Positions 4,310 through 37,711 of a stretch of DNA of 44,408 nt are shown here, piece by piece. How positions within the stretch are numbered: position 1 is the stretch's first letter; every line of letters begins with the position of its first letter. The notes beneath the pieces were generated by a model. The model saw nothing but the letters and a program-made list of their open reading frames with translations. It was not told the DNA's origin and did not search any database. The position numbers and the translations under genes were made by a program. Source of the DNA: a virus. The stretch spans positions 1 through 44,408 of the IMG/VR virus record IMGVR_UViG_3300024520_000142; one strand, 5' to 3'.

Positions 4310-4310
4310 T

Positions 4311-10478: not shown

Positions 10479-10658
10479 TTAAGTGTAATTTCTCTTTAGG
10501 TTGGCAACATAAATACTATCAACCCATTTATCATCTTTAGCTTTTTGACTCAATTCATTAGTATCCCCACTTTGTGTAGGGTCTTTACGTCGATTATCAA
10601 GTGTTTTAGAGTTTGTCTTCCTAGCGTGTTTCCACCTTCTTTCATTACCTGTAGACAT
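10479..10658 (-). CDS. 59-residue basic protein
   Basis: Read from the DNA: MSTGNERRWKHARKTNSKT and onward, Arg/Lys-rich N-terminus. Its ATG overlaps the stop of the transglycosylase gene (TAATG), with GGGAG upstream. No family recognised. Confidence 0.65.
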   Translation of the reverse strand: MSTGNERRWKHARKTNSKTLDNRRKDPTQSGDTNELSQKAKDDKWVDSIYVANLKRNYT

Positions 10659-20073: not shown

Positions 20074-20099
20074 TCAAGGGGAGCTTCGGCTCCTCTTGA
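20074..20099 (+). terminator. UUCG-capped hairpin after decoration-like gene
   Basis: Eleven paired bases (TCAAGGGGAGC with GCTCCTCTTGA, one G-U) around TTCG, followed by ATATTCTC. Same design as 19713-19740, so capsid and decoration messages are each bounded by one hairpin. Confidence 0.7.
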
Positions 20100-20119: not shown

Positions 20120-21427
20120 ATGGCATATTTAATTATAGTTGTTGTATGTCTGGTTGCATATTGTAAATCTTTTACTTACCAACCTGTAGTTGATGATGTA
20201 AGTAATAGAGTTAAGCATAACAAACCAGAACAAGAAAAAAGACATTCGCTCATTGTAAGAATTAGAAGAGCCTTAGATGGTAATTACCCAGTAAGAAGTA
20301 TTGGACTAGATCGAGCTATTACATTCTTTATAAATACTGCTGTTTGTTGTTTAATGTATAAAGCATTTGGTTCGTTAGTAGCAAGCTTATTGTTTGCAGT
20401 CAATATTTCTAATAATCAAGTTTCATTATGGTTGAATGGTAAACGATATGGCATAAATACAATAATATGTTTACTTGCTTATATATCACCTTGGTTAATT
20501 CCTTTGTGGTTTCTTACACCTTGGTTTCAGGCAAGTGCCATTACGTTCCCTTTATTACTGGTTTTTAAGTATAGTCCTTGGCTGCTCTTAGCAGTTCCTT
20601 GTGGATTGTTAGCAGGTAATAAATTTCTAATCAACTGGGCTAAATCAAGAATTAAAAAGAATAACTTTCCATTTTTCCATCAGTGGAACAATAAGAAAAT
20701 ATTCTTAATTGCCAAGACATTTGCATTTTACTTTGTTAGAGGGATAGTCCCATTCATTCCGTCAATGTATGTTAATTATTTGAGGAATTATGGATTCATT
20801 GAAGAAGATACGAAAAAAGCATATTCAATTGACGTTGCAACAGTGTTTGGATTTATACTTATACTATCAATACCAGTATTATATATGCTAGATCCAGCAT
20901 TCTTCTTTGGTTTAATGTGGTGGTTAATCACAATTGCAGTATTCAGTAACTATGTCACCATAACAATGGTTTTTGGTGAAAGGTATATGTACTTACCAAA
21001 TGTTGGGTTAATGTTATTTCTTACAAACTGTTTGAATTTAATATCCCCAAATTTATGGCTTTTAGTATTTGGATTGTATTTAGGTAGATTAATTTCATAT
21101 ATGCCAATGTATAAAGATTTAGATGCCTTCTTTGAACACCATCTATATACAGACCCTACTAACGATACAGGATGGGTTGGAGCAATGAATATAGCGACTG
21201 CTAAGAAAGATTCTGCAACAGCTTTGCAGTTAACAAATAGAGCATTAGCTCATGGTGCTGTATCACCAAGGATTTGGATTAACAGAGCTGCATTAGTAGC
21301 AGCTTATGGAGACAAAAAGATAGCTTTAGAATGTTTAGATGAAGCTGATGTGAGTTGTACGGATAGTTATAGAGATATATTGCTACCTAAAATAAATCAA
21401 TTAAGAAAAGAAATAAAGGAGAAATAA
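20120..21427 (+). CDS. Multi-pass GT-C glycosyltransferase-like protein, TMTC/DUF1736 type, with TPR
   Basis: 435 residues. Order: first membrane helix; YQPVVDDVSN with Asp25-Asp26, the position of the catalytic acidic motif in the first outside loop of GT-C enzymes; NYPVRSIGLDRAITFFIN then SLVASLLFAVNISNN and SLWLNGKRYG (84-110), paralleling the RPLT..LTF..N, LFAxHP and W(I)xGR blocks of TMTC proteins; several further helices; ERYMYLPNVG at 287-296, the clearest TMTC-type signature; and a soluble tail (about 350-425) with two TPR-like helical pairs. Known TMTC enzymes transfer mannose from a lipid carrier to Ser/Thr on the lumenal side. In a bacterium this would be the periplasmic face. It is shorter than eukaryotic TMTCs, which carry long TPR arrays. 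Substrate unknown: secreted fibre proteins of this phage, or host surface glycans. Confidence 0.7.
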   Translation: MAYLIIVVVCLVAYCKSFTYQPVVDDVSNRVKHNKPEQEKRHSLIVRIRRALDGNYPVRSIGLDRAITFFINTAVCCLMYKAFGSLVASLLFAVNISNNQVSLWLNGKRYGINTIICLLAYISPWLIPLWFLTPWFQASAITFPLLLVFKYSPWLLLAVPCGLLAGNKFLINWAKSRIKKNNFPFFHQWNNKKIFLIAKTFAFYFVRGIVPFIPSMYVNYLRNYGFIEEDTKKAYSIDVATVFGFILILSIPVLYMLDPAFFFGLMWWLITIAVFSNYVTITMVFGERYMYLPNVGLMLFLTNCLNLISPNLWLLVFGLYLGRLISYMPMYKDLDAFFEHHLYTDPTNDTGWVGAMNIATAKKDSATALQLTNRALAHGAVSPRIWINRAALVAAYGDKKIALECLDEADVSCTDSYRDILLPKINQLRKEIKEK

Positions 21428-21428
21428 A

Positions 21429-22208
21429 ATGGCGAGTACATTCGTAGACAATTATACTCTTGTCGATACAATTAATACACAGTTACCTTCGGCAACTCAA
21501 TACAATAGCAATGAAGGTGATGCAACTTTAACAACAGATTCATATGCACCAACAAGTGACTCAGTACATACTATACCAACTGCTTTGCGAAGCTTAGCAA
21601 CCGGAGCTTTAACGGATGATGGTTATTCACAAAAGAGTCTGTATGAACTACTTTTAATGATCAATGTCAATTGGGACAATGCAATGAAACAACTTGATGA
21701 TTCCTCGTTAGGAACATCAGACTATGAAACTTCGTTTGCAATTGGTCCATTAGACGGAGCTTACTCAGTAGATAGTGCAACATCTTTTGGAGCATCAACT
21801 ACAGCACTTAGATTAGGATTAGGACAAGGAGTAGATGCAACAAGTAGCACTGGTGCAATGGTCAATATTCATCCAGAAGGAATAAGCACACACGATCTAG
21901 CTGTTTGGTGTGAAGCAATGAACTCCACAATGGTTGCTTGTTTTGCTCAGTGTGATACCGATTCTGTACTGGATACAACTACATACAATACTTTGGCAGT
22001 TGGCTTTACAGCTAGTACTGGTAACTTTGACGCTATTGGCGCATCAGTAGCATTTACTGTTCTTCATCCAGATACAGACAAGTATGGACCACATCCAGGA
22101 TCATACATCACAACTACTGGAATTAAACAGGGTGCATTAATATCGTATTTAAATTCTATTGTTACTAACTTAAACACATTCTGGACTGCATTAGATGCAG
22201 ACATTTAA
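21429..22208 (+). CDS. Virion structural protein candidate
   Basis: 259 residues, Thr/Ser/Ala-rich with few charges, beginning MASTFVDNYTLVDTINTQLP. Repeated short beta-like segments (TTLRLGLG-type) and absence of motifs fit a structural protein. It starts one base after the glycosyltransferase stop, with AAGGAG upstream, so the two are probably co-translated. No family recognised. Confidence 0.6.
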   Translation: MASTFVDNYTLVDTINTQLPSATQYNSNEGDATLTTDSYAPTSDSVHTIPTALRSLATGALTDDGYSQKSLYELLLMINVNWDNAMKQLDDSSLGTSDYETSFAIGPLDGAYSVDSATSFGASTTALRLGLGQGVDATSSTGAMVNIHPEGISTHDLAVWCEAMNSTMVACFAQCDTDSVLDTTTYNTLAVGFTASTGNFDAIGASVAFTVLHPDTDKYGPHPGSYITTTGIKQGALISYLNSIVTNLNTFWTALDADI

Positions 22209-22218
22209 GGAGATTGAA

Positions 22219-22569
22219 ATGAGAAAGTTTTTACTAAGTTTATTGATACTTGGATTGATTTGTGTTTATCCTGTTTACGCAACTGTTACAGAAGGTGGAA
22301 ATATTGTTAAAATGACAGCAGCAGCTGACGCAACAACAAGTTCATTTAAGATTTCTACAATTGTATGGACTTCTGTTGCTGGATCAGAAATTACAGCAGC
22401 TGATGGTTTTATCTTAACTGATGAAGCTGGAGTTGAAATTATTTCAAGTGAGGCAACTGCTATTGAAGGTCAGCTTGTTGTTTCATTTGCAAAACCTTTA
22501 GTTGTTAAAGGATTAACAGCTTCTACATTAGATACAGGTGCATTATTCATTTACGGACAAAGACGTTAA
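22219..22569 (+). CDS. Small secreted protein in the structural operon
   Basis: 116 residues from MRKFLLSLLILGLICVYPVYA, with AAGGAG deciding this start. Basic n-region, hydrophobic core and VYA cleavage site make a textbook Sec signal peptide. The mature part is about 95 residues of beta-like, Thr/Ala-rich sequence (TVTEGGNIVKMTAAADATTS). A signal peptide is unusual in a virion operon; see findings. Confidence 0.75.
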   Translation: MRKFLLSLLILGLICVYPVYATVTEGGNIVKMTAAADATTSSFKISTIVWTSVAGSEITAADGFILTDEAGVEIISSEATAIEGQLVVSFAKPLVVKGLTASTLDTGALFIYGQRR

Positions 22570-22583
22570 AAAGGAGATTCCCC

Positions 22584-23027
22584 ATGTTGGAGGTATTAAA
22601 AGAAATTGACAAGTTAAAGACACTATTAGAAGAAAAGAACGATGCAACTGAAACTTTAAACAAACAATTATCCAGGCAAAAACTAGATCTTGAGAAATTA
22701 GAATCTAGAGTATCTGCTAAGCTAAACCATGCGTCAGCAATGGAAAGAGTCTATAAAAAGTATGAAGACTTTGACAATGAAGTTGCTGATTTTAATAAAA
22801 AGAAAATTAATTATTCAAGCAAGATGCAGACTATTGAGAAAAAAGAAAAAGAAGTTAATAAAGCTCAACAAGACTTAGATAAACAAGAAGAAGATGTAAG
22901 TAAAAAGAGTGCTGATTTATCTAGAAAAGTTCTTGCTTTAAAAGAACGTGAAGCTAACTTCGATAAGAAAAAAGATGACTTAAAGGCAATGATTAGTGGA
23001 CAAGCAATCAAGGACTTACTTAAATAA
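22584..23027 (+). CDS. Coiled-coil protein
   Basis: 147 residues, almost entirely heptad-like Lys/Glu/Leu (KLKTLLEEKNDATETLNKQ). Overlaps the next gene by TAATG. A structural, chaperone or assembly role is plausible from position. No family recognised. Confidence 0.7.
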   Translation: MLEVLKEIDKLKTLLEEKNDATETLNKQLSRQKLDLEKLESRVSAKLNHASAMERVYKKYEDFDNEVADFNKKKINYSSKMQTIEKKEKEVNKAQQDLDKQEEDVSKKSADLSRKVLALKEREANFDKKKDDLKAMISGQAIKDLLK

Positions 23028-23833: not shown

Positions 23834-23842
23834 GAGATTTAA

Positions 23843-24496
23843 ATGTTAGGATCAACATTTTACACATACGTACTAAAAAAGTTCATTCGTACAGACAAAG
23901 AAACAGAAGCATACCAGGCAATGACTGATATTATCAGTGATATGCGAATTCAATTCAATGCTGAACCTTTTAAAGAAGAAGCTTATATTGTAGGTATTAC
24001 AACTTTAGGTGAGTACCGAATTGCAATTCCATCTGACTTTGGTCACTTAATAGGTGACATTACTCTTATAGACCCTGATTCAAATGCTCGTAGGGAATTG
24101 AAGAAATTGGACAAACAAGAATATGATCGCAAATACGCTGATAGATTGTTTGATACTTTTGGTGATACATACTCAGGTGAACCAATTGACTACTGTCTTT
24201 ACGGAGAACAATTCTTCCTAGGTCCTGTACCTGATAAAATCACATACAAATATCAAATTAATTACTCAACTGAAGATTCTACTGAAATTACTTCAGCAAC
24301 TACAAATGTTCCTTTTACAGACAAGCATCGAAATATTGTCCGTTCCGGAGTCTTAGCAGAGCTACATGAGTTATTAGAGAACTATCAAGAAGCTGGATAT
24401 TGGAAAGCAATTTATCAAAATGGTTTAGATAAGGTTATTGCTAATGACAATGACAATATTGCAGATCATATGAATACAACTTATAACGGAATTTAG
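23843..24496 (+). CDS. Head-tail adaptor / tail tube-like protein
   Basis: 217 residues. The pattern of a helical N-terminus (KKFIRTDKETEAYQAMTDII), a loop-rich centre with ADRLFDTFGDTYSGEPIDYC and FFLGPVPDK, and a helical end (AELHELLENYQEAGYWKAIY) is typical of podovirus adaptor proteins of the P22 gp4/T7 gp11 type that join the portal to the tail. Confidence 0.65.
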   Translation: MLGSTFYTYVLKKFIRTDKETEAYQAMTDIISDMRIQFNAEPFKEEAYIVGITTLGEYRIAIPSDFGHLIGDITLIDPDSNARRELKKLDKQEYDRKYADRLFDTFGDTYSGEPIDYCLYGEQFFLGPVPDKITYKYQINYSTEDSTEITSATTNVPFTDKHRNIVRSGVLAELHELLENYQEAGYWKAIYQNGLDKVIANDNDNIADHMNTTYNGI

Positions 24497-24506
24497 GAGG
24501 TTTTAA

Positions 24507-25265
24507 ATGGCAGTACCAACTACTCAATGGGATGAAAATGCACCAGCTGGAACAGACAGTATTGCAAGTGGTGATAATGAAATAAGAACAATGAAACAAC
24601 AAGTTCGTGAAGTAGTTGCTGTTGACCATGAATTCACCTCTTCGCAAACTGCTTCTACTGGTGGACAACATTTGCAAGTTACTTTACAAAATCAGACAGA
24701 TGTTGGAATTGGTGCTAATGGAACAACAGCCATAGGAACTCAAGGAGCATCAGGTAGTGGTCAATTAGTTTATACTACTGAATCAGATTCAGATATTGTT
24801 ATAGTTGATACTAATGATAAATTATCATTCTCTTCTATCTCTGCTGTAGCTAATATGTCTGTTTTAATGGAATTTATATACCCTGTAGGTTCTATCTATA
24901 TGAATGCATCTGTTTCAACAAATCCTGGAACATTGTTAGGTGTAGGTACTTGGACAGCAATGGTTGATGAAGTTGTTGTAGGTAAGAACTCAAGTGGAAC
25001 ATTTGACACTTTAGGTACATTAGCAACTGGTGCTGAAACAGTACAATTATCTGCTGTTGAATCTGGAGTTGCTGCTCACACACACAGCATTCCAACATCA
25101 CAAGATAATAATGGTGGGTCGGCTGCATATGTACAGCAAGCACAAGCAACAACTACTTCTACTATTACGGGTGGTGCAGTTACAGGTGGTGCAGCTCAAG
25201 CTGCATCTGCTCACAATAATATCCAGCCTACATATGTAGCTTATATGTGGAGGAGAACTGCTTAA
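24507..25265 (+). CDS. Tail fibre protein with collar/receptor-binding C-terminal domain
   Basis: 252 residues. The C-terminal half matches the tail-collar type: IYPVGSIYMNASVSTNPG (about 124-141), LGVGTWTAMVDEVVVGK, AAHTHSIP and NNIQPTYVAYMWRRTA at the end. This domain in T4-like and other phages lies in baseplate or short-fibre proteins and coordinates metal through its HxH motif (HTH here). The N-terminal half is likely the attachment part. It overlaps the next gene by one base (TAATG). Confidence 0.8.
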   Translation: MAVPTTQWDENAPAGTDSIASGDNEIRTMKQQVREVVAVDHEFTSSQTASTGGQHLQVTLQNQTDVGIGANGTTAIGTQGASGSGQLVYTTESDSDIVIVDTNDKLSFSSISAVANMSVLMEFIYPVGSIYMNASVSTNPGTLLGVGTWTAMVDEVVVGKNSSGTFDTLGTLATGAETVQLSAVESGVAAHTHSIPTSQDNNGGSAAYVQQAQATTTSTITGGAVTGGAAQAASAHNNIQPTYVAYMWRRTA

Positions 25266-26791
25266 TGGCAATTTCCACAAATAAAAAAGGTAGTGTTTTA
25301 CTTATAAACGGTATTGATATATCAACACCTGCTGAGTATATAGATGACAGTTCTGCTAGAGACTCTGTTAATTTTGAGTTGTCACGTAATGTTCTTGCTA
25401 AACGTTCAGGAACAACTGTAATTGGCGTAGCTATTTCTACTACAGACGATATTATGGCTGGTCGTCAATACAATCGTGCAGGCACATTGTTTAATGTAAG
25501 ATTTGGTCAGAGTAAAATTGAATATGATGCAAGTGGTACTTGGACTGATTTAGGGACTACATTAACTGGAACTACGATTGACTTAGTAGATACTGCTATT
25601 CCAACTTTAAGTAGTAAGCGAATTCTATGCTCATCTAATGGAATTGATGGAATACAAAAGTGGGTAGGAACAGGTAATTTTGGATTACTTGGTGGATCAC
25701 CTCCTACACCTAAGTTTATACAAGAATACAAGACTTACTTAGTAACTGCTAATATCCAAGGTGGTACAGATGTAACACAAAGGGTACAGTGGTCTGATAC
25801 TGCTAATCCTGAAGAATGGAGTACAGGTAACTCTGGTTCAGTAGACTTAGTAGAAGATGGTGAGGATATTACAGGTTTAGGGTTATTTGGTAACTACATT
25901 ACTGTCCATAAGAAAACATCTATTTACTTAGGTTATTTGGTATCAACAACAGCAATTTTTAGATTTGATCGTAAGGACACTGGAGCAGGTGCAATTGCTA
26001 ATGGTTCAATTGTTAATATACCTGGTGGTGGACAATTGTTCTTAGCTCAGGATGGAATTAGAATATTCAATGGTATATCTACTCAATTAATACCTTCTAA
26101 AGTAAATGATGAAATTAGAGACACTTTAAATAAAGATGCAGCTGCTAGAGCATATTCAGTATTAGTACAAGAGAATGATGAGATTTGGATTGGCTTACCA
26201 ATTGGTTCACAAACAACAGGTGAAACAGTTTATAAGTATAACTATATTAATGGAACTTTGCTTAAAGACTCGCGTACTAGTGCTACTACAATGTGGTTAG
26301 GAACAGGATCTACATCAGCTACTTGGGACAGTTTATCAATTAATTGGGATAACTATAACGAACGTTGGAACAGTGGTTCATTAGTTGCTGGAGCTGATCA
26401 AATCAATATTGGCTCTACAGACGGATTAACAGTTAAAGTTGATTTAACCCAAACAGATGATAATAGTTCTGCAATCAATGCCTTTTGGGTAACTAAAGAC
26501 TTTCAAGATTCACAAGAACGAATTGGTCGTTGGCAAAGACTTGAGTTATGGGCTAAAGGAACAAGTTTAACTGTTGAATACTCTACAGACCAAGGTAATA
26601 CATGGGTTACTTTTAGTGGAAGTCCTATTACTCTTGGTAATAATTATCCAACCTTTGACGCACCATATGTACTATATTTTGATGTAATAGCACAACAAGT
26701 TAGATTTAGATTCAGTGATAATTCCTCTACAAACTCGTTAGGAATTAAACAGTTCACATTGGGTTATCATCCAAGGGAGTTACGTCAATAA
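25265..26791 (+). CDS. Tail nozzle-like beta-propeller protein
   Basis: 508 residues from MAISTNKKGSVLLINGID. Multiple propeller-type repeats (KRILCSSNGIDGIQKWVGTG, GLGLFGNYITVHKKTSIYLG, GQLFLAQDGIRIFNG). Resembles podovirus tubular tail protein B / P22 gp10-class nozzle proteins in length, position after the adaptor and repeat type. An upstream ATG gives six extra residues but overlaps the fibre gene with no ribosome site. Confidence 0.65.
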   Translation: MAISTNKKGSVLLINGIDISTPAEYIDDSSARDSVNFELSRNVLAKRSGTTVIGVAISTTDDIMAGRQYNRAGTLFNVRFGQSKIEYDASGTWTDLGTTLTGTTIDLVDTAIPTLSSKRILCSSNGIDGIQKWVGTGNFGLLGGSPPTPKFIQEYKTYLVTANIQGGTDVTQRVQWSDTANPEEWSTGNSGSVDLVEDGEDITGLGLFGNYITVHKKTSIYLGYLVSTTAIFRFDRKDTGAGAIANGSIVNIPGGGQLFLAQDGIRIFNGISTQLIPSKVNDEIRDTLNKDAAARAYSVLVQENDEIWIGLPIGSQTTGETVYKYNYINGTLLKDSRTSATTMWLGTGSTSATWDSLSINWDNYNERWNSGSLVAGADQINIGSTDGLTVKVDLTQTDDNSSAINAFWVTKDFQDSQERIGRWQRLELWAKGTSLTVEYSTDQGNTWVTFSGSPITLGNNYPTFDAPYVLYFDVIAQQVRFRFSDNSSTNSLGIKQFTLGYHPRELRQ

Positions 26792-27933
26792 TGGCAGATA
26801 TTAATATTCAAGATGATATTATATTTCCTGAGCCTGAGAATCAGAAAGAAATTGATCTTTATAAAACACTACAAGATACACACAGGCAAGTAGTAGATAC
26901 TTTTAGTGCTTTTGAAGATATTGCTGCTATTACTGCTGGTGATGGGTTGTTAGATACTTCTGATGTTTTTAGTGTACGAGTTGATACAACGACAATTGAG
27001 ATTACAGCTGATGTTTTAAATGTTGTAGATGGTGGAATTGGTTCAGATCAACTAGCTAATACTTCTGTAATTACAGCTAAAATTGCTGATGACGCAGTTA
27101 CCGAAGCAAAGTTACAGTTTAGTAACAACGCTTTTATGGAAGCTCTTATTTCAGGTGGTGGTTCAACAGTTGATTTAATTAAAGCTAATACTACTAACTA
27201 TCTTGAATTTGGTACTGAGATTACCTTCTCAACAGGTGCTGTTATTAAATTGTTTTCCGTAGATACTACGTTAGTTGATAATTCCGACCAAATATTACCA
27301 ACTCAAAAAGCAATTAAAACCTATATTGATTCTAATACTAGTGGAACTGGAATTGAAGTTTTTACAGCAAGTGGAACATTTAATGTACCTTCAGATGTAA
27401 GTTTCGTATTAATAGATGCAACAGGTCAAGGTGGAGGAGCTTCAAGAGGTATTGATGCTGGTAATGGTGGAGGAGGAGGAGGAGCTGGTGAGTATGTTCA
27501 AGATTACGGTGTTTCTGTAACTCCAGGTGGTACTGTTACTGTTACTTTAGCAAATACTGGTGGTGTTGGTGGAACGGGTGCTTCGGGTGCTCCTGGTACT
27601 GCTGGTAGTAATGCAGTGTTTGGTTCTATTACTTTATTAGGTGGTGGTCTTGGTACTGGAGCAACAGCAGGTTCTGGTGGAGGTAGTGGAGTATTTGATG
27701 CATCAACTACAACTGGTGGTTCTGGATTTCAACAAGGTGGAGACGGAGCAGCAGGTGCAGGCGACGGTGGAGGTGGAGGTGCTAATCCTTTCGGAAGTGG
27801 TGGAGACGGAGGAAGTGGTAGTTCTGCTGGAGACAATGCAACAGGATTTGGAGCAGGTGGTGGTGGTGGAGATGGAAGTCCAGGAGCTGATGGTGGTAAT
27901 GGATCTGACGGAGTTATTATTGTTAAGTATTAA
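26791..27933 (+). CDS. Tail fibre with polyglycine adhesin domain
   Basis: 380 residues. N-terminal third is a virion-binding region (FPEPENQKEIDLYKTLQDTH). The repeated DGGIGSDQLANTSVITAKIA pattern is a common fibre shaft element. From about residue 205 the sequence is dominated by Gly-rich runs such as GNGGGGGGAGEY, ending GVIIVKY. Such domains form polyglycine-II bundles in phage adhesins such as S16 gp38. Strong low-complexity bias is expected. Confidence 0.8.
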   Translation: MADINIQDDIIFPEPENQKEIDLYKTLQDTHRQVVDTFSAFEDIAAITAGDGLLDTSDVFSVRVDTTTIEITADVLNVVDGGIGSDQLANTSVITAKIADDAVTEAKLQFSNNAFMEALISGGGSTVDLIKANTTNYLEFGTEITFSTGAVIKLFSVDTTLVDNSDQILPTQKAIKTYIDSNTSGTGIEVFTASGTFNVPSDVSFVLIDATGQGGGASRGIDAGNGGGGGGAGEYVQDYGVSVTPGGTVTVTLANTGGVGGTGASGAPGTAGSNAVFGSITLLGGGLGTGATAGSGGGSGVFDASTTTGGSGFQQGGDGAAGAGDGGGGGANPFGSGGDGGSGSSAGDNATGFGAGGGGGDGSPGADGGNGSDGVIIVKY

Positions 27934-27966
27934 GAGGATAGAAATTTATAAATAAAGGGAGTAATT

Positions 27967-28995
27967 ATGGTTAAGAAGTCAACCAGTACAGCTATTGGTA
28001 CAGGATTAGGGGCTGTAGGAGGATCGTTTTTTGGTAATCCTATGTTAGGAGCATCTTTAGGTGGATCATTAGGTAGTTTATTTGGTTCTGATGGCAGTAA
28101 TAATGATTTAGAAGATTTACGTACTCCCGAACAAATAGCTGCTGCTCAAGCATTGCAAAGTTTAGGACAAACAGGATCTGGTGCTGGTATTACTTTAGGT
28201 AAAGCTTTTGAAGGACCTCTAGGTAACTTCCAACAAACAGGAGCAGAGCAACAAGCTCTAGGTCAATTACAAGGTTTATTTGGTGGGCAGGAATTAACCC
28301 AAGCACAAGATGTCTTTAGTAAAGCTGCTGAAGCTAAGTTTAATCCAGACGATCCTAGTTCTGGTTTTGCTGCATTTAGCCGAGCCTTAGCAAAGTCTGG
28401 TGGAGAAGCTCAAGACAAACTTAACCAACAAGCTGCTATTACAGGTGGTGTTTTCGGTTCAGGTAGAGGTCGAGATACTGCTTCTTTACAGGCTGATTTG
28501 TCTAACCAACGTGGGCAATTCTTAGCGAATCTATTCCAAAATCAACAACAAGTTGCTTTACAAGGTGCTCAAGGACTACAAGATATTGCTACTCAAAGAG
28601 CTGGTTTATCTGCTCAGTTACAACAACAAGGAGCAATTGAACGTCAACTTAAAGATCAAAAAGCTAAAGCTGCATTGGGCGAATTTAAAAGACAACGTGG
28701 TGAAGAGTTACGCAGGATTGATTTATTAAGTGCTGAAGCTAATCGTAATCCATTCTTAGGAATTAGTTCAATACCTGGTGGTCAAAGTGGATTTAGTCAA
28801 TTAGCTAATTCAGTTTTAGGTAGTGCTGGACAATCAATTGGATCAGATCCTAGTGGATTCTTAAGTGGATTAAAAGGTTTATTTGGTGGTGGTGGAACAG
28901 CTTCATCGTCAGCAAGATCTTTAAATTTACCATCACCACAATCTTTTACTAACTCATTTGCTTCTGGTGCTGCATCAGCATTACCAAAATTCTAA
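27967..28995 (+). CDS. Probable DNA-ejection protein 1
   Basis: 342 residues. A Gly/Leu-rich N-terminus (GTGLGAVGGSFFGNPMLG) and Gln/Ala-rich helical body (NQQQVALQGAQGLQDIATQ) are typical of P22-type ejection proteins that leave the capsid with the DNA and help it cross the envelope. First of three large adjacent genes in the same class; 11 bp before the next. Confidence 0.65.
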   Translation: MVKKSTSTAIGTGLGAVGGSFFGNPMLGASLGGSLGSLFGSDGSNNDLEDLRTPEQIAAAQALQSLGQTGSGAGITLGKAFEGPLGNFQQTGAEQQALGQLQGLFGGQELTQAQDVFSKAAEAKFNPDDPSSGFAAFSRALAKSGGEAQDKLNQQAAITGGVFGSGRGRDTASLQADLSNQRGQFLANLFQNQQQVALQGAQGLQDIATQRAGLSAQLQQQGAIERQLKDQKAKAALGEFKRQRGEELRRIDLLSAEANRNPFLGISSIPGGQSGFSQLANSVLGSAGQSIGSDPSGFLSGLKGLFGGGGTASSSARSLNLPSPQSFTNSFASGAASALPKF

Positions 28996-29006
28996 AGGAG
29001 GTCACA

Positions 29007-30284
29007 ATGGCTGGAGGAGTACCAATAAATAGTTTACAAGACCTTCTATTACTGAGGGAATTAAGAGATCAGGCTGATCCATTTAAGTCTGGTATTAAGG
29101 CATTGGCTCAAGGAGTTTCGGCTGGAATTGCTGAAAGACAGGAAGAGGCTAAAGCTAACAAACAAAGAGAAGCTAATTTTGCTCAGTTTTCAAAAATTGC
29201 AGAGAATAATACTAACTCAGGAAAATTAATAAAGAAATTATCAATTGAGCCTTTAACTGGTAAAACAAAATTCAGTCTTTCATTACCGACTGAAGCTGAA
29301 AAGAAAATTCAAAGAGAATCTAAGATTGATGAAGATTTTAGATTAGCTGTGAAAGAAAATAAATCTTCTACTGAAATAGGCAGACAGTTTCCAGGCAAAG
29401 CAAAAGAAATTGCAGAACTGGAAGAACTTAATATTTTATCTCCTCAAGGTGCTGTACCAATACCAGGTCAAGTCCCTGGAGTTCAACAAGTACAAGCAGA
29501 TGGAACAGTTGGAGGTGGTCAACCAACGACAGGACAAGATAGAATCATAACAGAGGTAACTCCTCAAGGTAGAGCTAAGACAACTATTTCAAAATCTGGT
29601 AAAATTGCAGAACAAGAAACTAAAGCTGTAGGTAAAGTAAGAGGAACTCAATTCGAACAAGGTGCAAAATCATTAGCTAACTTCAATCGTGTAAAACAAG
29701 CATCTATTGGTATGGTTTCTGCTGCTAAAAGAGTTTTTAAAGAACAAGGTGGTTTTGGTTTTGTACAAGGAATTAAAGGTAAAGTTAAAAGAGCAGCTGC
29801 TAAAAGTGGACTTGTTAAGGTTGCTGCAGAAGATGCTCAAGCAGGTAGAGCCGAACTTATAGGTCAAACTCAAGAGATGGTACTTTCACTTTCACCAATC
29901 CTTACTAACCAAAATAGGGTTATCCAAGGTGTTCTTGAGATGCTTGGTAAAACAATACCTGATGCAGATAAACCTACTACAGGAGCAGAATTTACAGCAC
30001 AATTAAAACAAACAACCCAAAATGCTTTCCGTTTAAGCTTTGCATTATCAGCTGGAGCTTTAACTGTTGGAGAAATTGAAGACTTAAATAAAGGTGGAAC
30101 TCAAGAAGAAATTGTTAGTACAATGCGTGATGTTATGGCAAGATCAACAGTAAAAGAAGAAGCTGATAAATTCTTTAAAGAACAGTGGGGAGAAATACTT
30201 AATTCTCCAGCTTCGGTAGCTGAAGATATATTTGCTGATAGAGAACAACAACCTTTACAAATCAATAGTGTAACTAGGAATTAA
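29007..30284 (+). CDS. Probable DNA-ejection protein 2
   Basis: 425 residues, mostly helical, Lys/Ala/Gln-rich (AKANKQREANFAQFSKIAEN). No enzymatic motif seen, so no transglycosylase activity is claimed. AAAGGAGG precedes the ATG. Assignment rests on position, length and composition. Confidence 0.6.
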   Translation: MAGGVPINSLQDLLLLRELRDQADPFKSGIKALAQGVSAGIAERQEEAKANKQREANFAQFSKIAENNTNSGKLIKKLSIEPLTGKTKFSLSLPTEAEKKIQRESKIDEDFRLAVKENKSSTEIGRQFPGKAKEIAELEELNILSPQGAVPIPGQVPGVQQVQADGTVGGGQPTTGQDRIITEVTPQGRAKTTISKSGKIAEQETKAVGKVRGTQFEQGAKSLANFNRVKQASIGMVSAAKRVFKEQGGFGFVQGIKGKVKRAAAKSGLVKVAAEDAQAGRAELIGQTQEMVLSLSPILTNQNRVIQGVLEMLGKTIPDADKPTTGAEFTAQLKQTTQNAFRLSFALSAGALTVGEIEDLNKGGTQEEIVSTMRDVMARSTVKEEADKFFKEQWGEILNSPASVAEDIFADREQQPLQINSVTRN

Positions 30285-30288
30285 ATAT

Positions 30289-32019
30289 ATGAGTTCATTT
30301 ACATACGAAACAAATAAAGGTTCTTTCACAATTGATTCTAATAGACCGTTAAATCCTGAAGAATTAGCTGAACAAATTAAAATTCAAGAAGCTAAAGACA
30401 TGTCTATTGGTGAAATTATATCAAGTAATTTTGTTAAGGCAGCTAAAGGAACATTTCAAGAAGGTGTTGTTCCAATTGCTAAAGGTTTAGATGTTGCTGC
30501 TTTTGGATTACCTAGAACAATGTTAAAAGCATTTAATCCTGAACTAGATAAGCAAATGTTTCCAGATCAAGAAACTTTAGGTGGGAAAGTTTTCAACATA
30601 GCTTCTCAAGTTAGAGGATTACTTAAAGGTGGAGCTGTTAAAGCTGGTGAAGCTGTTGGAGCTAAGTTAATTCCTAAAGCTGCAACGTTAGGTCAAAAGA
30701 TAAAGAAAGGTGCAACAATTGCTGGAGTTGGTGGAGCAACGCAGTTTGTAGGAGATCCTGAAAAAACTTTATTAGATCAAATAGGTAAGCAGGGAATTCA
30801 AGGTGCTTTAAGTGCAGGCATTGGTGCTGGTGTTCCGGTAGCTGGAGCAGGCATTGCTAAGGGAAAAGAGCTAGGTCAAACATTTTCTAAAGGAGCTAAA
30901 GGGTTTGTTTCTGATGCTTTGGTACCTAAAATGATGGAGAAATTTGGTAATTCTGTTTCTAAACTTGGGAGTAAGTTTACTAAGTTTGCTGAAGAAAAAT
31001 TAAACATACCAAAACAGTCTTTAGAGGTTATTAAAAATAAAGGTGAGGCTGTTCTTGATGAAGTATTTGCAGCAACAAGAGGAGCTACTGATGATATTGC
31101 CAATAGGTTACAAAGAGGATTAGGTACCATGCGTACAATAGCTGATGATGCTTATACTCAAGCAATGGATTCTGTGCCAAACAATCATTTGTTTTCTATT
31201 AACAAGACATACAATAAATTAAGAGGTCACTTACGAGAAAATAAATTAATTGATTTACAAGGTAACTTAACTCAAAGAGGTCAAGAAGCAAGAGCTGTAA
31301 ATAAAAGATTAATAAACATTTATGATGATATGAATCGAGGTGTTGTTGGCGAAGGTCGTACAATAGCAACTGGTAAAGTTCAAAAAAATGACTTTAATTT
31401 TTATAGAGATGAACTAAGTGATTTATACAGTCAAAGCCCTAAAGACAGAATTATATTTGATACTATAGACAGTCTTTACGATGATGCAGCTGAATCAGGT
31501 TTTCAAGGTTTAAAAGAAGGTAGAGCATTGCAAAAAAGAGCTTTTCAAATGGAAAAGAAATTTGCTAACAGTGCATTAACTAAAGAACAAAAATTAAATA
31601 GATATCATAAGTGGACATCTGAAGAGAAAAGAGATTTAAAAGAATTAACAGGTTACATTGAAGACACTTTCCCTACTGATGCTGGAATTATTGATGATCT
31701 TGAATCAACTGTTTCTTCTGCTGACTTACAAGTTATGCGAAATAAAATAGGTCCTGAAGTTATGAGAAAAGATTTAAAATCAGCTATCGATAAAGAAAAT
31801 TTTAATACAATCAAATCAAAGTGGGCATCTATCTTGGATGATCCAGTAGATGACATTTTTAATGAAATTAAACAAGTTAGAACAGGTAGAGCAATAAGAA
31901 GGTTTGCTGAAAAAGCAGCCGTACCAGCAGTGTTAGCTACTGGTGTAGCTTCTGGTATTGGATATGGAATGTACCGTCTTGGAGCAGAAGGTGTGCAAGA
32001 CTTATTTGGAGATTTCTAA
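30289..32019 (+). CDS. Probable DNA-ejection protein 3
   Basis: 576 residues. Helical, Ala/Lys-rich, with a Gly/Ala hydrophobic stretch at about 140-200 and another at the C-terminus (VLATGVASGIGYGMYRLG) that could insert into membrane. Stop overlaps the ATG of the next small gene. Assignment from position, size and composition. Confidence 0.6.
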   Translation: MSSFTYETNKGSFTIDSNRPLNPEELAEQIKIQEAKDMSIGEIISSNFVKAAKGTFQEGVVPIAKGLDVAAFGLPRTMLKAFNPELDKQMFPDQETLGGKVFNIASQVRGLLKGGAVKAGEAVGAKLIPKAATLGQKIKKGATIAGVGGATQFVGDPEKTLLDQIGKQGIQGALSAGIGAGVPVAGAGIAKGKELGQTFSKGAKGFVSDALVPKMMEKFGNSVSKLGSKFTKFAEEKLNIPKQSLEVIKNKGEAVLDEVFAATRGATDDIANRLQRGLGTMRTIADDAYTQAMDSVPNNHLFSINKTYNKLRGHLRENKLIDLQGNLTQRGQEARAVNKRLINIYDDMNRGVVGEGRTIATGKVQKNDFNFYRDELSDLYSQSPKDRIIFDTIDSLYDDAAESGFQGLKEGRALQKRAFQMEKKFANSALTKEQKLNRYHKWTSEEKRDLKELTGYIEDTFPTDAGIIDDLESTVSSADLQVMRNKIGPEVMRKDLKSAIDKENFNTIKSKWASILDDPVDDIFNEIKQVRTGRAIRRFAEKAAVPAVLATGVASGIGYGMYRLGAEGVQDLFGDF

Positions 32020-32177
32020 TGGCCTGGACTAAACAAACAAAAGCAACAACAACAAATAAAGGTTGGGGACAAGCTGGTTGGGGATCTAGCCGATGGGGAA
32101 GTCCTTCCGGTTATGTAAATTGGGCTAAGCAGACTAAACCAACAGATACTTGGACTAAACAAACAAAGGTAACGTAA
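32019..32177 (+). CDS. 52-residue Trp-rich repeat protein
   Basis: Read from the DNA. W(T/A)KQTK occurs three times (about residues 3-8, 35-40 and 46-51), separated by GWGQAGWGSSRWGS. Six or more tryptophans in 52 residues. ATG overlaps the stop of the ejection gene; the next gene's ATG follows its stop directly. Function unknown; a virion or membrane-interaction role is a guess from the Trp content. Confidence 0.7.
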   Translation: MAWTKQTKATTTNKGWGQAGWGSSRWGSPSGYVNWAKQTKPTDTWTKQTKVT

Positions 32178-33443
32178 ATGAAAAAGATTCTATATTCCAT
32201 TGCAGCAATTTTAATTACATGTGGATTAGTTTGGGCTGCTACTACCACAACTAATTATAGTCTAACTAAGCCTGGTATTGGTGATGTTGATTGGGGAGCT
32301 TCAGTAAATACTAACTTCGACACTATTGACACTACAATGAAAGCCAATGAAGATGCTGCTGGATTGAATACTACTCATCGTAGTTCTAATGGTTCAGATC
32401 ATAGTTACATTGACCAGGACGTAACAAGTGGTTCAACGCCAACCTTCACAGGTACTAACATTACAGCTGCTGCTACAGCAACTGCTTTAGTTACTAATCC
32501 TACTGCGTGTAGCTCAGGTGACTATGTAAGTGATTTAGATGCTGACGGTACATTAACTTGTAGTACTCCAGCTGGTGGTGCAGGAGGTAATGTTGCTGTA
32601 CAGACAGATGGAACTCAATTAACTGCTGCATTAGATACATTGAACTTTGGTGGAGATTTCACTACTTTAGAAACAATTACAGACTTGATTACCCTTGCAA
32701 TAAATACCAATGCAAACTTAACCTGGAGTGGTACTAATTCATGGTCAGGTACAAGTACCTTTTCAGGTGCTACTTCGTTTACAGGAGCTGGTTCTTTTGT
32801 TATTTTTGATGAAGGTTCTTCTGAATCGACACCAGGATCTAACAAAGTTAAGCTTTATGCAAAGAGCGATGGATTTCTTTACTCTAAAGATGATACTGGA
32901 ATTGAATCCAATGTTGGTGGTGCTACTTTACTAACTGGTTTAAGTGATATTGCCTCCAGTGTAACCTATAATCCAGGATTGATATTAATTGCTAATGGAA
33001 CTCAGTTTGATTCTGTAACTATAGTAGGTGATGGTACTATTGCAGCAGGTGGAACTTTAACTATTGTTGATAATTCCCACAACCATACTGAGTCTAATAT
33101 TACAGACTTGAACCCTTTATCTGGGTTGCCTTTTGATAAGTCTATAGTGATTGAATCTCCAGTAACTTTAGATAGTTGGGATATATTCTCATCAAGAAGT
33201 GCCGTTACTTTAGATCGTATTGATGGTACGCTACAAAGTTCAGGAACCATTATATTTGATTTTTTTGTAAACGATTCAGCAGTAAATGGATCTTTTATTA
33301 CTCTTACTAACGCAGGAACGTTTGATAGTTCTTTAGGTGGAACAACGTCATTAACAACAGGAGACGTTTTAAGTGTTCAAATATCAACAGTATCAGGTGA
33401 TGTAACTTGGGCTATGCCTCAAATATCAGGGAGTTATGACTAA
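32178..33443 (+). CDS. Secreted tail-fibre-like protein
   Basis: 421 residues. Sec signal peptide (MKKILYSIAAILITCGLVWA, cleavage after VWA), then TTNYSLTKPGIGDVDWGAS and VNTNFDTIDTTM, which is the well-known opening of phage tail-fibre shafts, and a beta-rich body of Thr/Ser-rich repeats. The fibre motif directly following a signal peptide is the odd part. Overlaps the next gene by one base (TAATG). Confidence 0.75.
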   Translation: MKKILYSIAAILITCGLVWAATTTTNYSLTKPGIGDVDWGASVNTNFDTIDTTMKANEDAAGLNTTHRSSNGSDHSYIDQDVTSGSTPTFTGTNITAAATATALVTNPTACSSGDYVSDLDADGTLTCSTPAGGAGGNVAVQTDGTQLTAALDTLNFGGDFTTLETITDLITLAINTNANLTWSGTNSWSGTSTFSGATSFTGAGSFVIFDEGSSESTPGSNKVKLYAKSDGFLYSKDDTGIESNVGGATLLTGLSDIASSVTYNPGLILIANGTQFDSVTIVGDGTIAAGGTLTIVDNSHNHTESNITDLNPLSGLPFDKSIVIESPVTLDSWDIFSSRSAVTLDRIDGTLQSSGTIIFDFFVNDSAVNGSFITLTNAGTFDSSLGGTTSLTTGDVLSVQISTVSGDVTWAMPQISGSYD

Positions 33444-33976
33444 TGAAAAAGATAATATGGATATTCTTATTATCACTTATGGCAGTAAATGGACATGCAG
33501 CCTGCACAGGTGAGATTAAAAATGCCTACAAAAACACTACGTATAAATCCGTTATTGTAGAAACTGAGTATAAGATCAATGGGCAGGTAGTTAACGGGCA
33601 AGGCTTACCATGTGCTTTTGATACCAACGAAAAAGTTTTTAAAAGAAATGGAAAAGTATGTATAGGTGGTGAGGGTTTTAATAAACTTTCTGGCACTGAT
33701 CTTGGTATTATAGAAAGAGCTTTGGCTGGCGTAGCTGAACATTGTGGGAACATAATTTCCCGACTGGAAGCTAATGCAACATTTATTAACGACGAAAAAG
33801 CTAAACGAATGGAATATCTAAAGTTGAATAGAGATTCAGATAATATAGTGCTGGGGATAAAAGATGCTTTAATAGGGCAAATAATAACCGTAGATGAAAA
33901 AAATATAATCTTTAAGGGGAAAATAATCAATGTTAAAGCAGACAGCACTCATAGTATTACTGATATTGTTGAATAG
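33443..33976 (+). CDS. Small secreted protein, unknown
   Basis: 177 residues. Signal peptide MKKIIWIFLLSLMAVNGHA, then a domain with four cysteines (ACTG, LPCAF, KVCIGG, EHCG) suggesting disulfides. The C-terminal third overlaps the start of the next gene by 47 nt. I recognise no family; it is unlike usual virion proteins. Possibly a chaperone or partner for the secreted adhesins next to it. Confidence 0.65.
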   Translation: MKKIIWIFLLSLMAVNGHAACTGEIKNAYKNTTYKSVIVETEYKINGQVVNGQGLPCAFDTNEKVFKRNGKVCIGGEGFNKLSGTDLGIIERALAGVAEHCGNIISRLEANATFINDEKAKRMEYLKLNRDSDNIVLGIKDALIGQIITVDEKNIIFKGKIINVKADSTHSITDIVE

Positions 33977-34730
33977 TTCTTTTGTAGAAGCCTACGACTG
34001 GACGCAGGACGCAGATGCAGAGGCGACTTGGTTATTAGATGTCTCAGACAACCCAACTCCTGATGCTACAGCTTCCTTTGATGGAACAGTAACAGGAGCT
34101 ACTCATGCAACTGCTAGTCCAGCTAAAAGTTATTCCACAGGTTACTATACTTTCGATGGTAGCAATGATGAGATAAACTTTGGAGATATTCCTGCTATTG
34201 ATGATTCTTCTATTGTTTCAGGAGTTGCTTGGGTTTATCAAAATAACATAACACAAGACCATTGGATTTTTGGTCACTACAATGGAACTAGTGGATTGTT
34301 TTGGATGTTTGATGATACGTCAGCAGGATCAGGTAGAACTGATATTTATAGAATCTTTACAAGAGAGTCAGCAGGTGCAGGTCAAGGTCTTGTTAACTTA
34401 GAAACTCCTACTAGTGGGGCTACAGCAGGTGATTGGGAACATGTTGCTTTCTCATGGCAAGCTAATGTTAGTAGTGGATTAAGGTTGTGGGTTGATGGAA
34501 TTGAAGTTGCAGATAGTCCTGTATCAACAGTAGGTAACAATGATTTTGGTTTAACTAGTGCAGACTTTAGAGCTGGTGAAACTAATACAGGCGTAAGTGA
34601 TAGAAATGGTAGGCAGGATGAACTTGGGGTTTTTACAGTCATATTAGATGGTACAGACATTAACGATATTATGACCAATGGTTTACTACAAGCCGTTGTG
34701 ACATCAAGAAGAATAATGATAATTAACTAA
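33930..34730 (+). CDS. Secreted LamG-like lectin-fold protein
   Basis: 266 residues. Signal peptide (MLKQTALIVLLILLNSSFVEA), then a concanavalin/LamG-3 type jelly roll: YYTFDGSNDEINFGD, ASGVAWVY-type strands, DWEHVAFSWQ and LRLWVDGIEVAD. This fold typically binds sugars or surface glycans. It sits between a secreted protein and the large receptor-binding protein. Confidence 0.75.
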   Translation: MLKQTALIVLLILLNSSFVEAYDWTQDADAEATWLLDVSDNPTPDATASFDGTVTGATHATASPAKSYSTGYYTFDGSNDEINFGDIPAIDDSSIVSGVAWVYQNNITQDHWIFGHYNGTSGLFWMFDDTSAGSGRTDIYRIFTRESAGAGQGLVNLETPTSGATAGDWEHVAFSWQANVSSGLRLWVDGIEVADSPVSTVGNNDFGLTSADFRAGETNTGVSDRNGRQDELGVFTVILDGTDINDIMTNGLLQAVVTSRRIMIIN

Positions 34731-34738
34731 GGATTTTA

Positions 34739-37711
34739 ATGAAAAGATTATTTATATCAATATTAATATTATTATCTAGCCAAGCTTACGCTGAGACTGT
34801 TACCGTTACAATCCCCTCCCAAGTTTCAAGCTTTATGGATACAAGACATTACGACCCTAGCGAGATTGATGCCTTGGCTCTGCCAGCTAACACAAACGGA
34901 GAGAAAACATACTACGTTGATGGCACAAATGGTGACGATGATGAGTGTAATGGTCTTTATCCCACCTATACTGGTGGTGGAGCTGTTTGTAGTGCTGATG
35001 CAAATGGACCTTATAAGAGCCCAGAAAAACCTTTTAAACAATATGAAGGGCATCAATATGGAGAGAGAGTTTTATTCTTAGCTGGAGAATACATAATCAC
35101 ATCAGCTTTAATGGACAATGTTCGCGTTTTTACAGACAATGTTTTAAAAAATACTGATAGCCATTGGAATACAATAGCTCCTTATGGTGATGGTGAGGTT
35201 ATATTTAATTTATCTGAGACAGATCAGCTAGGAACGTTTACTACTCTTTCTGGCAATATTTATCAAGCATCTTATGGTGGAACCTGGTCAAGTTCTGATC
35301 CTGTAGATTGGGCTGTATTAGATTATAATGCTCAAAGTGCAAGACAGTCTATTGGGTATACAGGAACAGATAGTTCAGGCTCAAGTAATAAGACAACCTC
35401 AATGGTAGATACTTCAAGTAATATTGATGCTTCGTGCAGTCAAGCTGTAACAAGGGATTTTGTTGATTTAACTTGGGATGATTGTGTCCGAACTGGAAGT
35501 TTAACAACGGATTTTGTTGGAGGAATTATTTGGAATATTACAGATGATTCGTGGGGCGTGGTGACTTCAATTTCAACTACAACAAACTCTAATGATACTA
35601 TCAACTTCTCTGCTGGTTTGTCAGGTGGAACAGACAATGATTTTGATAACGGAGATAGCTATGCTGTTTATGAAATGGGAGCTGATGGAGAATTTACAAC
35701 AATAGGAGGATCTTTCTTTATTAGATCTGATTCAGGCAACCCAACATCAAGGAACCTTATTGCACAGCAAATTATAGCCAGTAGTTCTTCTTCTAAATTT
35801 GTACTAAGAGGGCAAGCTAAGAGATGGCTTTTATATGGAATAACTCTGATAGGAGCTAACAATATTGGGGTGGACTTTCAAGGCGACGGGATGAAAGTCA
35901 AAGTTCAAAAGTGTCGTTTCATGTTTAATGGTAAGTCGGGAGCAAGTTATTTCGGTGACGGCATGACACAGAAGTTCTTTAAGAATTTCTGGTATGGGAA
36001 TGTAATGGCTAATTGGCCTAGAGGAAATTATTACGGAGGGAATGGTGGTTGGACTAATGCTATGACAAATGCTGGGTATGCTGATTTAGTTGATGGGAAT
36101 ATTACACTTGATAATGGAGGGGAAGGAACTCCGTCTGCAACAATAACACAAAACAATATTTCATATAACAACTGGTCAATGGGGATATATGTTGGAGATT
36201 TAAATCCATCCCCAAACACAGGATCAGTTACTAATAATGTTGTTGTTAATCCTGGTTATGACGCGACAGAAGCAGAGTCTATGTTTTATTTACAGTCAGC
36301 TTATAATTCATCTGATAGAACTTATACTAAGCAAAATACAAACGCTTATGTTAATTTGTCTAATGAGAATAGTGGGCCAGGAAATCCCCCTACTGGATGG
36401 GAGTTCTACAACAATCTAATTATTGGTGGACGTATTGGAGTTTATTTTGAGAGAGATACAGCACACATGGTTAACAGTGTGATAGCTAATAATACAATAA
36501 TCCTTTCCCCAGATCAAACAAGATTTGACCCTGACTTTGGTATAACTTCTGGAGTGTTTTATCCAACAACATCTAGTGACACGGGTAATGTTTTCAAAAA
36601 TAACTTAATTATATCTTCCTCTTTAAATACTGATGCTCAGCATTTCTTGGTTCAAACATACAGAGGGACGGATTATTCTGGATATGATTGGGATCAGAAT
36701 GTGTATTCTTTCCCAAGTAATGAACTTTTCTATCCTGGAAGTAGTGCAAGTTTTTCCACTTGGAAGTCAACAACAGGTTTTGATGCAAATTCAGTAATGG
36801 TAAATAGTCAACTATTAGACACTACGTCTGATTTTTTAGATATGTCTTTATTGGATAAGTCTGCTATGAAACTTGTGGCAGGGTCACTAGCTATTGATAC
36901 AGGAGCAGATCTAAGCAGTTCGCTTTCTACAGACTATGATTTTGGGACGAGACCTTTTAATTCTACATTTGATGTTGGTGCTTTTGAGTATTTAGCTACC
37001 CCTAATATCCCAGATTTAGCTTTGGATGAAGAGGCTTGCTCTGTTGATGGAGATTGTTTAGCTGGGAGTCAATGTTGTAGTTCTGTATGTAAAGAAGAAG
37101 CCTGTGGCTCTGGACCAGATTGTACTTTAAATACATTTTCGTGTTCTGATAGTACAGATTGTTGTTCTGGATATTGTTGTAGTGATGTATGTGTTGCAAG
37201 TTCATGTCCTGAAGCTGGAGATTTAAACATCGCAGTATTTAAAACTGCTGTTGCTTCAAGTGATAGAGGAGGTAATGTTGCTAGTGGCGTTACTGACAAT
37301 ATTATAAGCTATTTCAATATGTGGCAGAGTAAAGATGTTTTCTATGACGACCCTCAAACTCAATGGGTTTATGTTGATTTAGAGGCTGGTTATTTTATTG
37401 GTGGAGCTACAATTGAGTGGACGGCAACTTATACTAATGGGTATGCTCAAACATACTCAATACAAACATCTGACAATGCAACAGATTGGACCACAATATA
37501 TACAACCACAGAGGGGAATGGAGGTCAGGATATTATTACTGGCCTGTCTGGATATGGTCGATATGTTAGACTACTTTGTGATGACCCAAACAATGCCTCT
37601 GGAGGCTACCAAGTGCCAGAGTTTAAAATATATGAAGGGTCTTCTGAAGGATCTTCAAATCCAACGACAGTAATTGGCACTGTTACATGTCAAGGGGTTA
37701 CATTTAATTAG
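34739..37711 (+). CDS. Large secreted receptor-binding protein: beta-helix, cystine-knot-like, F5/8C
   Basis: 990 residues. Signal peptide MKRLFISILILLSSQAYA. Residues about 50-750: entry motif YYVDGTNGDDDECNG and parallel beta-helix coils (NNISYNNWSMGIYVGD, NNLIIGGRIGVYF, NNLIISSSLNTDA), as in tailspikes and pectate-lyase-like proteins. Residues about 763-823: two tandem Cys-rich modules with CC pairs (CSVDGDCLAGSQCC and CSDSTDCCSGYCC), the spacing of inhibitor cystine knots. Residues about 826-975: F5/8 type C (discoidin) lectin domain (VASSDRGGNVASGVTDN, WVYVDLEAG, GRYVRLLC). No catalytic residues of a known depolymerase could be assigned. The disulfide-rich module needs an oxidising place to fold, which fits the signal peptide. 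Confidence 0.8.
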   Translation: MKRLFISILILLSSQAYAETVTVTIPSQVSSFMDTRHYDPSEIDALALPANTNGEKTYYVDGTNGDDDECNGLYPTYTGGGAVCSADANGPYKSPEKPFKQYEGHQYGERVLFLAGEYIITSALMDNVRVFTDNVLKNTDSHWNTIAPYGDGEVIFNLSETDQLGTFTTLSGNIYQASYGGTWSSSDPVDWAVLDYNAQSARQSIGYTGTDSSGSSNKTTSMVDTSSNIDASCSQAVTRDFVDLTWDDCVRTGSLTTDFVGGIIWNITDDSWGVVTSISTTTNSNDTINFSAGLSGGTDNDFDNGDSYAVYEMGADGEFTTIGGSFFIRSDSGNPTSRNLIAQQIIASSSSSKFVLRGQAKRWLLYGITLIGANNIGVDFQGDGMKVKVQKCRFMFNGKSGASYFGDGMTQKFFKNFWYGNVMANWPRGNYYGGNGGWTNAMTNAGYADLVDGNITLDNGGEGTPSATITQNNISYNNWSMGIYVGDLNPSPNTGSVTNNVVVNPGYDATEAESMFYLQSAYNSSDRTYTKQNTNAYVNLSNENSGPGNPPTGWEFYNNLIIGGRIGVYFERDTAHMVNSVIANNTIILSPDQTRFDPDFGITSGVFYPTTSSDTGNVFKNNLIISSSLNTDAQHFLVQTYRGTDYSGYDWDQNVYSFPSNELFYPGSSASFSTWKSTTGFDANSVMVNSQLLDTTSDFLDMSLLDKSAMKLVAGSLAIDTGADLSSSLSTDYDFGTRPFNSTFDVGAFEYLATPNIPDLALDEEACSVDGDCLAGSQCCSSVCKEEACGSGPDCTLNTFSCSDSTDCCSGYCCSDVCVASSCPEAGDLNIAVFKTAVASSDRGGNVASGVTDNIISYFNMWQSKDVFYDDPQTQWVYVDLEAGYFIGGATIEWTATYTNGYAQTYSIQTSDNATDWTTIYTTTEGNGGQDIITGLSGYGRYVRLLCDDPNNASGGYQVPEFKIYEGSSEGSSNPTTVIGTVTCQGVTFN

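Follow-up and report, generated by a model that had tools for sequence, protein, structure and literature searches.

The textbook account has tailed phages carrying out all of their assembly in the cytoplasm, and filamentous phages export their coat proteins before assembly. Use of the host Sec pathway prior to lysis is already known for late phage proteins such as the fOg44 endolysin Lys44, signal-anchor-release endolysins, spanins and T4 RI, which, unlike the proteins described here, serve lysis or lysis control and not adhesion (PMC6116005, PMC12642591). Exported tail-fibre-like proteins are likewise already known from bacteria. The mosaic adhesive trimer (MAT) fibres of Bdellovibrio bacteriovorus, compared here by their description (PMC10769870), are tail-fibre-like, glycan-binding and placed behind a signal peptide, but are encoded by the bacterium, displayed on its surface and built on a conserved, beta-rich N-domain of ~130 amino acids; the exported enzyme WceF of Pantoea stewartii (PMC7949094) has a tailspike-like fold and acts on exopolysaccharide, but belongs to a bacterial biofilm operon, carries a Tat signal and is not a phage protein. 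Here we consider IMG/VR record IMGVR_UViG_3300024520_000142, a 44,408-base viral record from an environmental phage with a podovirus-type late region (the window). Five of its late genes (22219, 32178, 33443, 33930 and 34739, named by their start positions) encode predicted Sec-exported proteins, several of them fibre- or spike-like, and a further gene (20120) encodes a membrane protein resembling the TMTC glycosyltransferases. Export signals on tail-fibre-like, sugar-binding proteins are unusual for a tailed phage.

The first-pass annotation had joined these genes in a single pathway, in which a GT-C-like enzyme adds O-linked glycans to the five proteins while they are being exported, and these are then attached to virions, as completed adhesins, when the cell lyses. 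We instead put at roughly 0.6 the probability that two separate things are present, i.e. Sec-exported fibre and spike variants that would act outside the cytoplasm and an independent, TMTC-derived protein that occupies an exchangeable slot behind the capsid gene.

Sec signal peptides of five late proteins

Sequence analysis confirmed that the five genes begin with clear predicted Sec signal peptides, from which export and cleavage of the proteins themselves may be inferred. All are encoded on the + strand: a small protein at 22219-22569 (leader MRKFLLSLLILGLICVYPVYA, predicted cut before TV; mature domain 22282-22566), a fibre-type protein at 32178-33443 (MKKILYSIAAILITCGLVWA, before AT), a 177-residue protein with four cysteines at 33443-33976 (MKKIIWIFLLSLMAVNGHA, before AC), a protein of LamG/concanavalin type by likeness at 33930-34730 (MLKQTALIVLLILLNSSFVEA, before YD) and a spike-like protein of 990 residues at 34739-37711 (MKRLFISILILLSSQAYA, before ET). 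Each combines a basic n-region, a hydrophobic core and a small-x-small site at 18-21 residues, with no further membrane span. The AxA-type signal peptides read earlier in these proteins all pass our home-made rule, which at about the same cut-off is passed by 5/2750 shuffled proteins. The sole other gene in the window to pass encodes a signal-anchor lytic transglycosylase on the early strand (10658-11131, - strand), whose product, transglycosylase-like and with a long hydrophobic N-terminus, is probably a signal-anchor-release endolysin.

The start of 22219 is preceded by the Shine-Dalgarno sequence AAGGAG, whereas the open reading frame start at 22195 has no such site, so that 22219 is the correct start. 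Relatives of this gene in L004 and L017 (L-numbers designate the other records and loci compared) also have a signal peptide, the leader being variable and the mature domain conserved, as expected for a true signal peptide. Elsewhere the gene is interrupted (L011:4222-4578) or internally deleted (L010:6389-6508), and it seems that it is dispensable or that these breaks are sequencing errors. The leaders might alternatively be anchors that are kept in the mature proteins and aid insertion of fibres in the tail or membrane during infection; leaders as long and as hydrophobic as these could also form a single helix, and such proteins are uncharacterised. We consider this distinctly improbable, given that every one of the five has a small-x-small motif 18-21 residues in, that the leader varies beside a conserved mature domain in the 22219 family and that the body of 34739 is Cys-rich.

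The large exported proteins contain 21, 14 and 10 cysteines, compared with 0-3 in most virion proteins, and the 21 cysteines of 34739 are in keeping with folding in an oxidising compartment. The Ser/Thr content of the exported proteins, which had been taken to set them apart as likely glycosylation substrates, proved not to be distinctive (10-28% in the exported proteins versus 19-25% in several cytoplasmic virion proteins).

A fibre module with and without an export signal

Phage fibres and tailspikes, including Tunturi_4 gp112, pectate-lyase-type spikes and those with Phage_depo_C, share with the exported proteins the N-terminal module, the late gene position and glycan-active domains, but ordinary members begin at the module, without an export signal, unlike 32178. 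In the latter the TTNYxLTKP module (residues ~21-62) follows directly on the signal peptide (residues 1-20), and the N-terminus predicted after cleavage, A-TTTTNYSLTKP, compares with M-PTTTPNYGLTKP in a non-exported fibre. Of the 25 viral fibres that contain this module, 22 have it at or beside the start codon and three (in the window, L062 and L063) have a signal peptide ahead of it. Fibres without a signal peptide include those of L019, L023 and L025 and many more, with L023 and L025 encoding non-exported homologues of 32178 at the same genomic position; in Tunturi_4 gp112, the one annotated match, the module lies right behind the start codon, and the matches in bacterial genomes, all Bacillota loci (L076-L080), have no upstream leader or signal peptide. 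The fusion of leader and module probably arose more than once, because L062 and L063 sit among morphogenesis genes that differ from those around it in the window. A second fibre family behaves in the same way, with a leader in L026:17107 and L028:15694 and none in L031:4523 under the same upstream gene order. At the level of sequence, exported fibres are thus real and recurrent. The open-access literature searched, in which absence is not proof, yielded no report of tailed-phage fibres with signal peptides.

Domains of the usual phage adhesion kind recur among the exported proteins. That of L062 has a Pect_lyase_RHGA_epim domain and a weak match to an endosialidase-type N-extension, that of L024 a Phage_depo_C match just below cut-off and that of L026 a LamG_3 domain. 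The window's 34739 has a beta-helix-type body with a choice-of-anchor Q motif (NF041518, 1.2e-7) and a C-terminal F5/8C domain of CBM32 type (F5_F8_type_C_2, 2.3e-12; glucanase/chitosanase domain 4zy9, 6e-13). Between the two, at residues ~765-830, lies a dense Cys-rich stretch (CCSSVCKEEACGSG...CCSGYCCSDVC) that is unusual in a phage protein. The Pfam match of 33930 itself is not significant; the protein has 28% identity to L053:3786, and its positional counterpart L026:20318 matches Laminin_G_3 (E=3.3e-22). The earlier description of all five as adhesion proteins accordingly holds for the fibre- and spike-like members and is not borne out for 33443 and 22219, in which no adhesive domain or fibre features were found; 33443 has no family match in Pfam, PHROG or NCBIfam profile searches, and an AlphaFold2 model of the 22219 domain (pLDDT 47) is too poor to interpret.

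In the mechanism that we propose, a signal peptide placed directly ahead of the usual fibre N-module would, upon late expression, take the protein through Sec across the inner membrane. Signal peptidase would then cut so as to leave a fibre N-terminus close to the normal one, an outcome that is understandable if the module still docks or trimerises, and folding would occur in the periplasm, with disulphide formation in the Cys-rich 34739. Once outside the cytoplasm, the products would target glycans of the cell surface or the extracellular space, either by working as free exoproteins that mask receptors from sibling phages or open polysaccharide, or by docking on virions at envelope breakage. 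Free action is slightly more likely, because the phage also has tail and fibre proteins without leaders, i.e. a putative cytoplasmic tail/fibre component with a Gp10_C domain at 24507-25265 (PF21939, 7.3e-20; phrog_6465) and a Gly-rich tail-fibre-type protein at 26791-27933 (phrog_863, 8.1e-27), both on the + strand.

The same two proteins argue against a reading in which the exported fibres are simply virion parts, passing through Sec, maturing in the periplasm and docking on the tail at envelope breakage with no glycosylation step; so does the lack of fibre features in 33443 and 22219, and we know of no tailed phage in which exported fibres dock late. This reading nevertheless agrees with the ordinary fibre N-module being intact directly behind the cleavage site, with the position of the genes, at that of tail fibres and 3' of the internal virion proteins, and with L023 and L025 having non-exported homologues in the corresponding place, and we hold it to be possible, if tentative. 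Many bacterial exoproteins contain choice-of-anchor Q and F5/8C domains, a point in favour of a further alternative, that the exported proteins are acquired host-type surface adhesins which alter the host surface in infection. The MAT proteins, being tail-fibre-like, at the cell surface and equipped with signal peptides, offer a model for it (PMC10769870), but both 32178 and L028:15694 have close homologues in phages, at the fibre position and without signals, and this origin appears unlikely. Exported variants of phage fibres and spikes, slightly more probably acting free, remain our preferred account.

A TMTC-like protein in an exchangeable slot

The TMTC-type blocks and TPR-like tail that the first-pass annotation had recognised at 20120-21427 (+ strand) were found on closer inspection. 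The 435-residue product has 9-11 hydrophobic spans (11, with a GT-C fold, in the TMTC reference), the blocks VVDD, ASLLFAV, LNGKRYG and ERYMYLP, and C-terminal TPR repeats that match designed TPRs in a profile search (E=3.4e-12) and place TPR folds at the top of the Foldseek list. The AlphaFold2 model (pLDDT 52) is too poor to interpret, and the Foldseek run on it shows only the TPR part. No glycosyltransferase model of Pfam, PHROG or NCBIfam matches the protein, the only match being to TPR; PF08409 gives no match in it and nothing over cut-off in its own record or in Bacillota genomes. Searches of bacterial genomes and plasmids, which did not extend to TMTC-rich phyla, yielded no homologues or TPR-only matches, and the phage collections searched yielded three, i.e. 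the window's own, L020 (42%) and L022 (31%); L021 proved to be a false match. The TMTC3 fragment KSSVIASLLFAVHPIHT, printed in PMC7801869, fits window residues 83-99 better than it fits any of 300 shuffles.

With the O-mannosyltransferases TMTC1-4 (GT-C/PMT clan; PMC7801869) the protein shares the first-loop DD, ASLLFAV, a G-K/R at the spacing of motif M3, ERY and the TPR tail, but it has no PF08409 match, lacks the KE of M4, the DW of M5, the PxxP of M6 and the D of M3, and has a much shorter TPR part. Considering the motifs in turn, the DD of M1, in the first periplasmic/lumenal loop, is invariant in all three phage homologues (D25-D26). M2 (SHKSYRP, in the same loop) is absent, with GNYPVRSI in the window and GEFPVKSI in L020 in its place. 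At M3 (RxD, which in human TMTC3 follows the F of SLLFAV by 16 residues), K108 (R in L022) lies at the exact spacing and Y110 replaces the aspartate. The metal-site motif M4 (KE(T/Q)xxT), placed by eye, is replaced by FQASAIT, FQVSAVS and FQVTALL in the three homologues, no DW (M5, DUF1736 loop) occurs in residues 211-240, and PxxP (M6, TM9) is absent, the corresponding segments reading AVFSNYV and AVFGNLV. M7 (ERxxY) is present in the window (E287, R288, Y291) and L020, with DRYIA in L022. DD and [E/D]RY are thus kept in 3/3 phage homologues, and M4 KE, M5 DW and M6 PxxP in none, so that by this comparison all three carry substitutions in most motifs of the TMTC ligand and metal sites. Because M4-M6 were placed by eye and the reference motifs are those of human TMTC1-4, from which bacterial TMTC relatives may differ, catalysis by the 20120 protein is uncertain and its inactivity not proven. 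We regard it as a probable TMTC-derived membrane protein whose chemistry may be altered or absent. A GT-C protein would work at the periplasmic face, so that the cytoplasmically assembled capsid would be ruled out as its substrate and a host surface glycan indicated; the 20120 protein most likely acts there on a lipid-linked sugar or a host surface glycan, independently of the fibres.

We compared the interval from the small capsid-adjacent gene (19761-20063, + strand), homologues of which lie beside the capsid gene in relatives, to the next conserved late genes, beginning in the window with 21429-22208 (+ strand; homologues in relatives), across seventeen capsid relatives and further tail-gene relatives. 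The GT-C-like gene occupies this slot in two phages (the window and L020), S-adenosylmethionine (SAM)-dependent methyltransferase and/or GT2-type genes in eight (L008 with its near copy L009, L010, L013, L014, L015, L016, L026 and L028; confirmed by Pfam for L008, L010 and L013 and assigned by likeness in the others), and in six it is empty (L003, L004, L006, L011, L017 and L027). Contigs L010 and L011 share 99.1% identity on one side of the slot and 99.2% on the other and differ by exactly its cassette, a methyltransferase-GT-GT set at L010:3636-5819 with its counterpart at L011:3353-3652, a natural swap behind the capsid gene. As the slot contents vary among sister phages, 20120 is best described as cargo in an exchangeable glycan-gene slot. 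The left border gene is itself tandemly duplicated in several relatives (L003:4246-4872, L017:9043-9683, L004:4568-5083), and sister phage L014 carries, 5' of its terminase (L014:135-4739), genes that by eye are radical-SAM-, aminotransferase- and thiamine pyrophosphate (TPP)-enzyme-like, possibly a sugar-biosynthesis cargo. By analogy with mycobacteriophage capsid glycosyltransferases, which act on the capsid (Che8, Rita; Freeman 2023, in the account given in PMC11256854), the methyltransferases and GT2 enzymes of the slot would work in the cytoplasm and might have the capsid as a substrate. Those enzymes, so far as that account goes, and phage serotype-conversion glucosyltransferases (e.g. 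PMC3851460) are phage-borne glycan enzymes too and alter the host surface or virion, but likeness to TMTC is not shown for either and both have other genome positions.

The 20120 protein and the exported proteins would both face the periplasm, where GT-C enzymes act, as the proposed glycosylation pathway requires, but the genes occur apart. Signal-peptide proteins are found at the same positions in relatives with an empty slot (L004, L017, L011) and with cytoplasmic-type GT2 or methyltransferase genes in it (L013, L014/L024, L026, L028), so that at least six sister contigs have them without a GT-C-like gene, and L014, L026 and L028 lack one over their whole records. L020 presents the reverse case, with the GT-C-like gene present and the neighbouring secreted 22219-type gene absent. 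The suggestion of one operon is only partly borne out: 20120 and the five signal-peptide genes share one direction, but a strong hairpin (20074-20099, + strand; 11-bp stem, UUCG loop) lies directly 5' of 20120, and a promoter scan gave sites no more numerous than in shuffles. Strong hairpins of differing sequence, placed immediately behind the small capsid-adjacent gene, precede the slot in nine of the 12 stretches folded (window, L020, L010, L011, L003, L004, L017, L027, L014); lacking a clear U-run, the slot hairpin is as likely to serve attenuation or processing as to terminate transcription. Taken with the exchangeable slot, the substituted M3-M6 and the undistinctive Ser/Thr content, these findings leave a coupled glycosylation pathway unsupported and very unlikely, with 20120 a separate plug-in gene.

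Several points weigh against this separation and against export itself. The signal peptides were called by our own rule and not by SignalP; the role of the TTNYxLTKP module, in docking or trimerisation, is putative; GT-C membership of 20120 rests on motifs and likeness, not a profile match; and the relatives are all metagenomic fragments, in which the slot itself is spanned but a gene missing from a contig may still exist in the phage. The single observation that could favour a link comes from L022, the most distant GT-C-like carrier, with three nearby signal-peptide genes (2879-5787, - strand), one with FG-GAP repeats; lying on the opposite strand and apart from virion genes, however, they may belong to the host or be cargo.

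Late gene order and implications of the proposed export

The late region runs from terminase (13910) and portal (15437, phrog_156) through the major capsid gene that anchors the slot (18578-19699, + strand; phrog_334, E=2.8e-75) to the tail genes (23843-26791), internal-virion-type genes (27967-32019) and then 32178-37711 with two short genes. Early and replication genes, encoding a Sak4-like protein, a helicase-like protein, an exonuclease and the signal-anchor transglycosylase, lie on the opposite strand, and no integrase was found among the window genes searched. Nucleotide searches found no cultured-phage relatives; portal relatives are distant only (Bcep22/KPP25-type, 23-25%), and L002 is the same phage as the window.

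The slot provides a natural catalogue of glycan-modifying cargo, including a near-identical phage pair that differs there. A recurrent signal peptide ahead of a standard fibre module would imply either a periplasmic assembly step or the release of receptor-binding or depolymerising proteins before lysis, and either outcome would, within the literature searched, be new for tailed phages. We raise only tentatively the broader idea that several tailed phages complete their adhesion apparatus outside the cytoplasm, through Sec, cleavage, disulphide-assisted folding in the periplasm and docking at envelope breakage. If it is true, a phage would switch between cytoplasmic and periplasmic maturation of its fibres by acquiring or losing a signal peptide ahead of the module.

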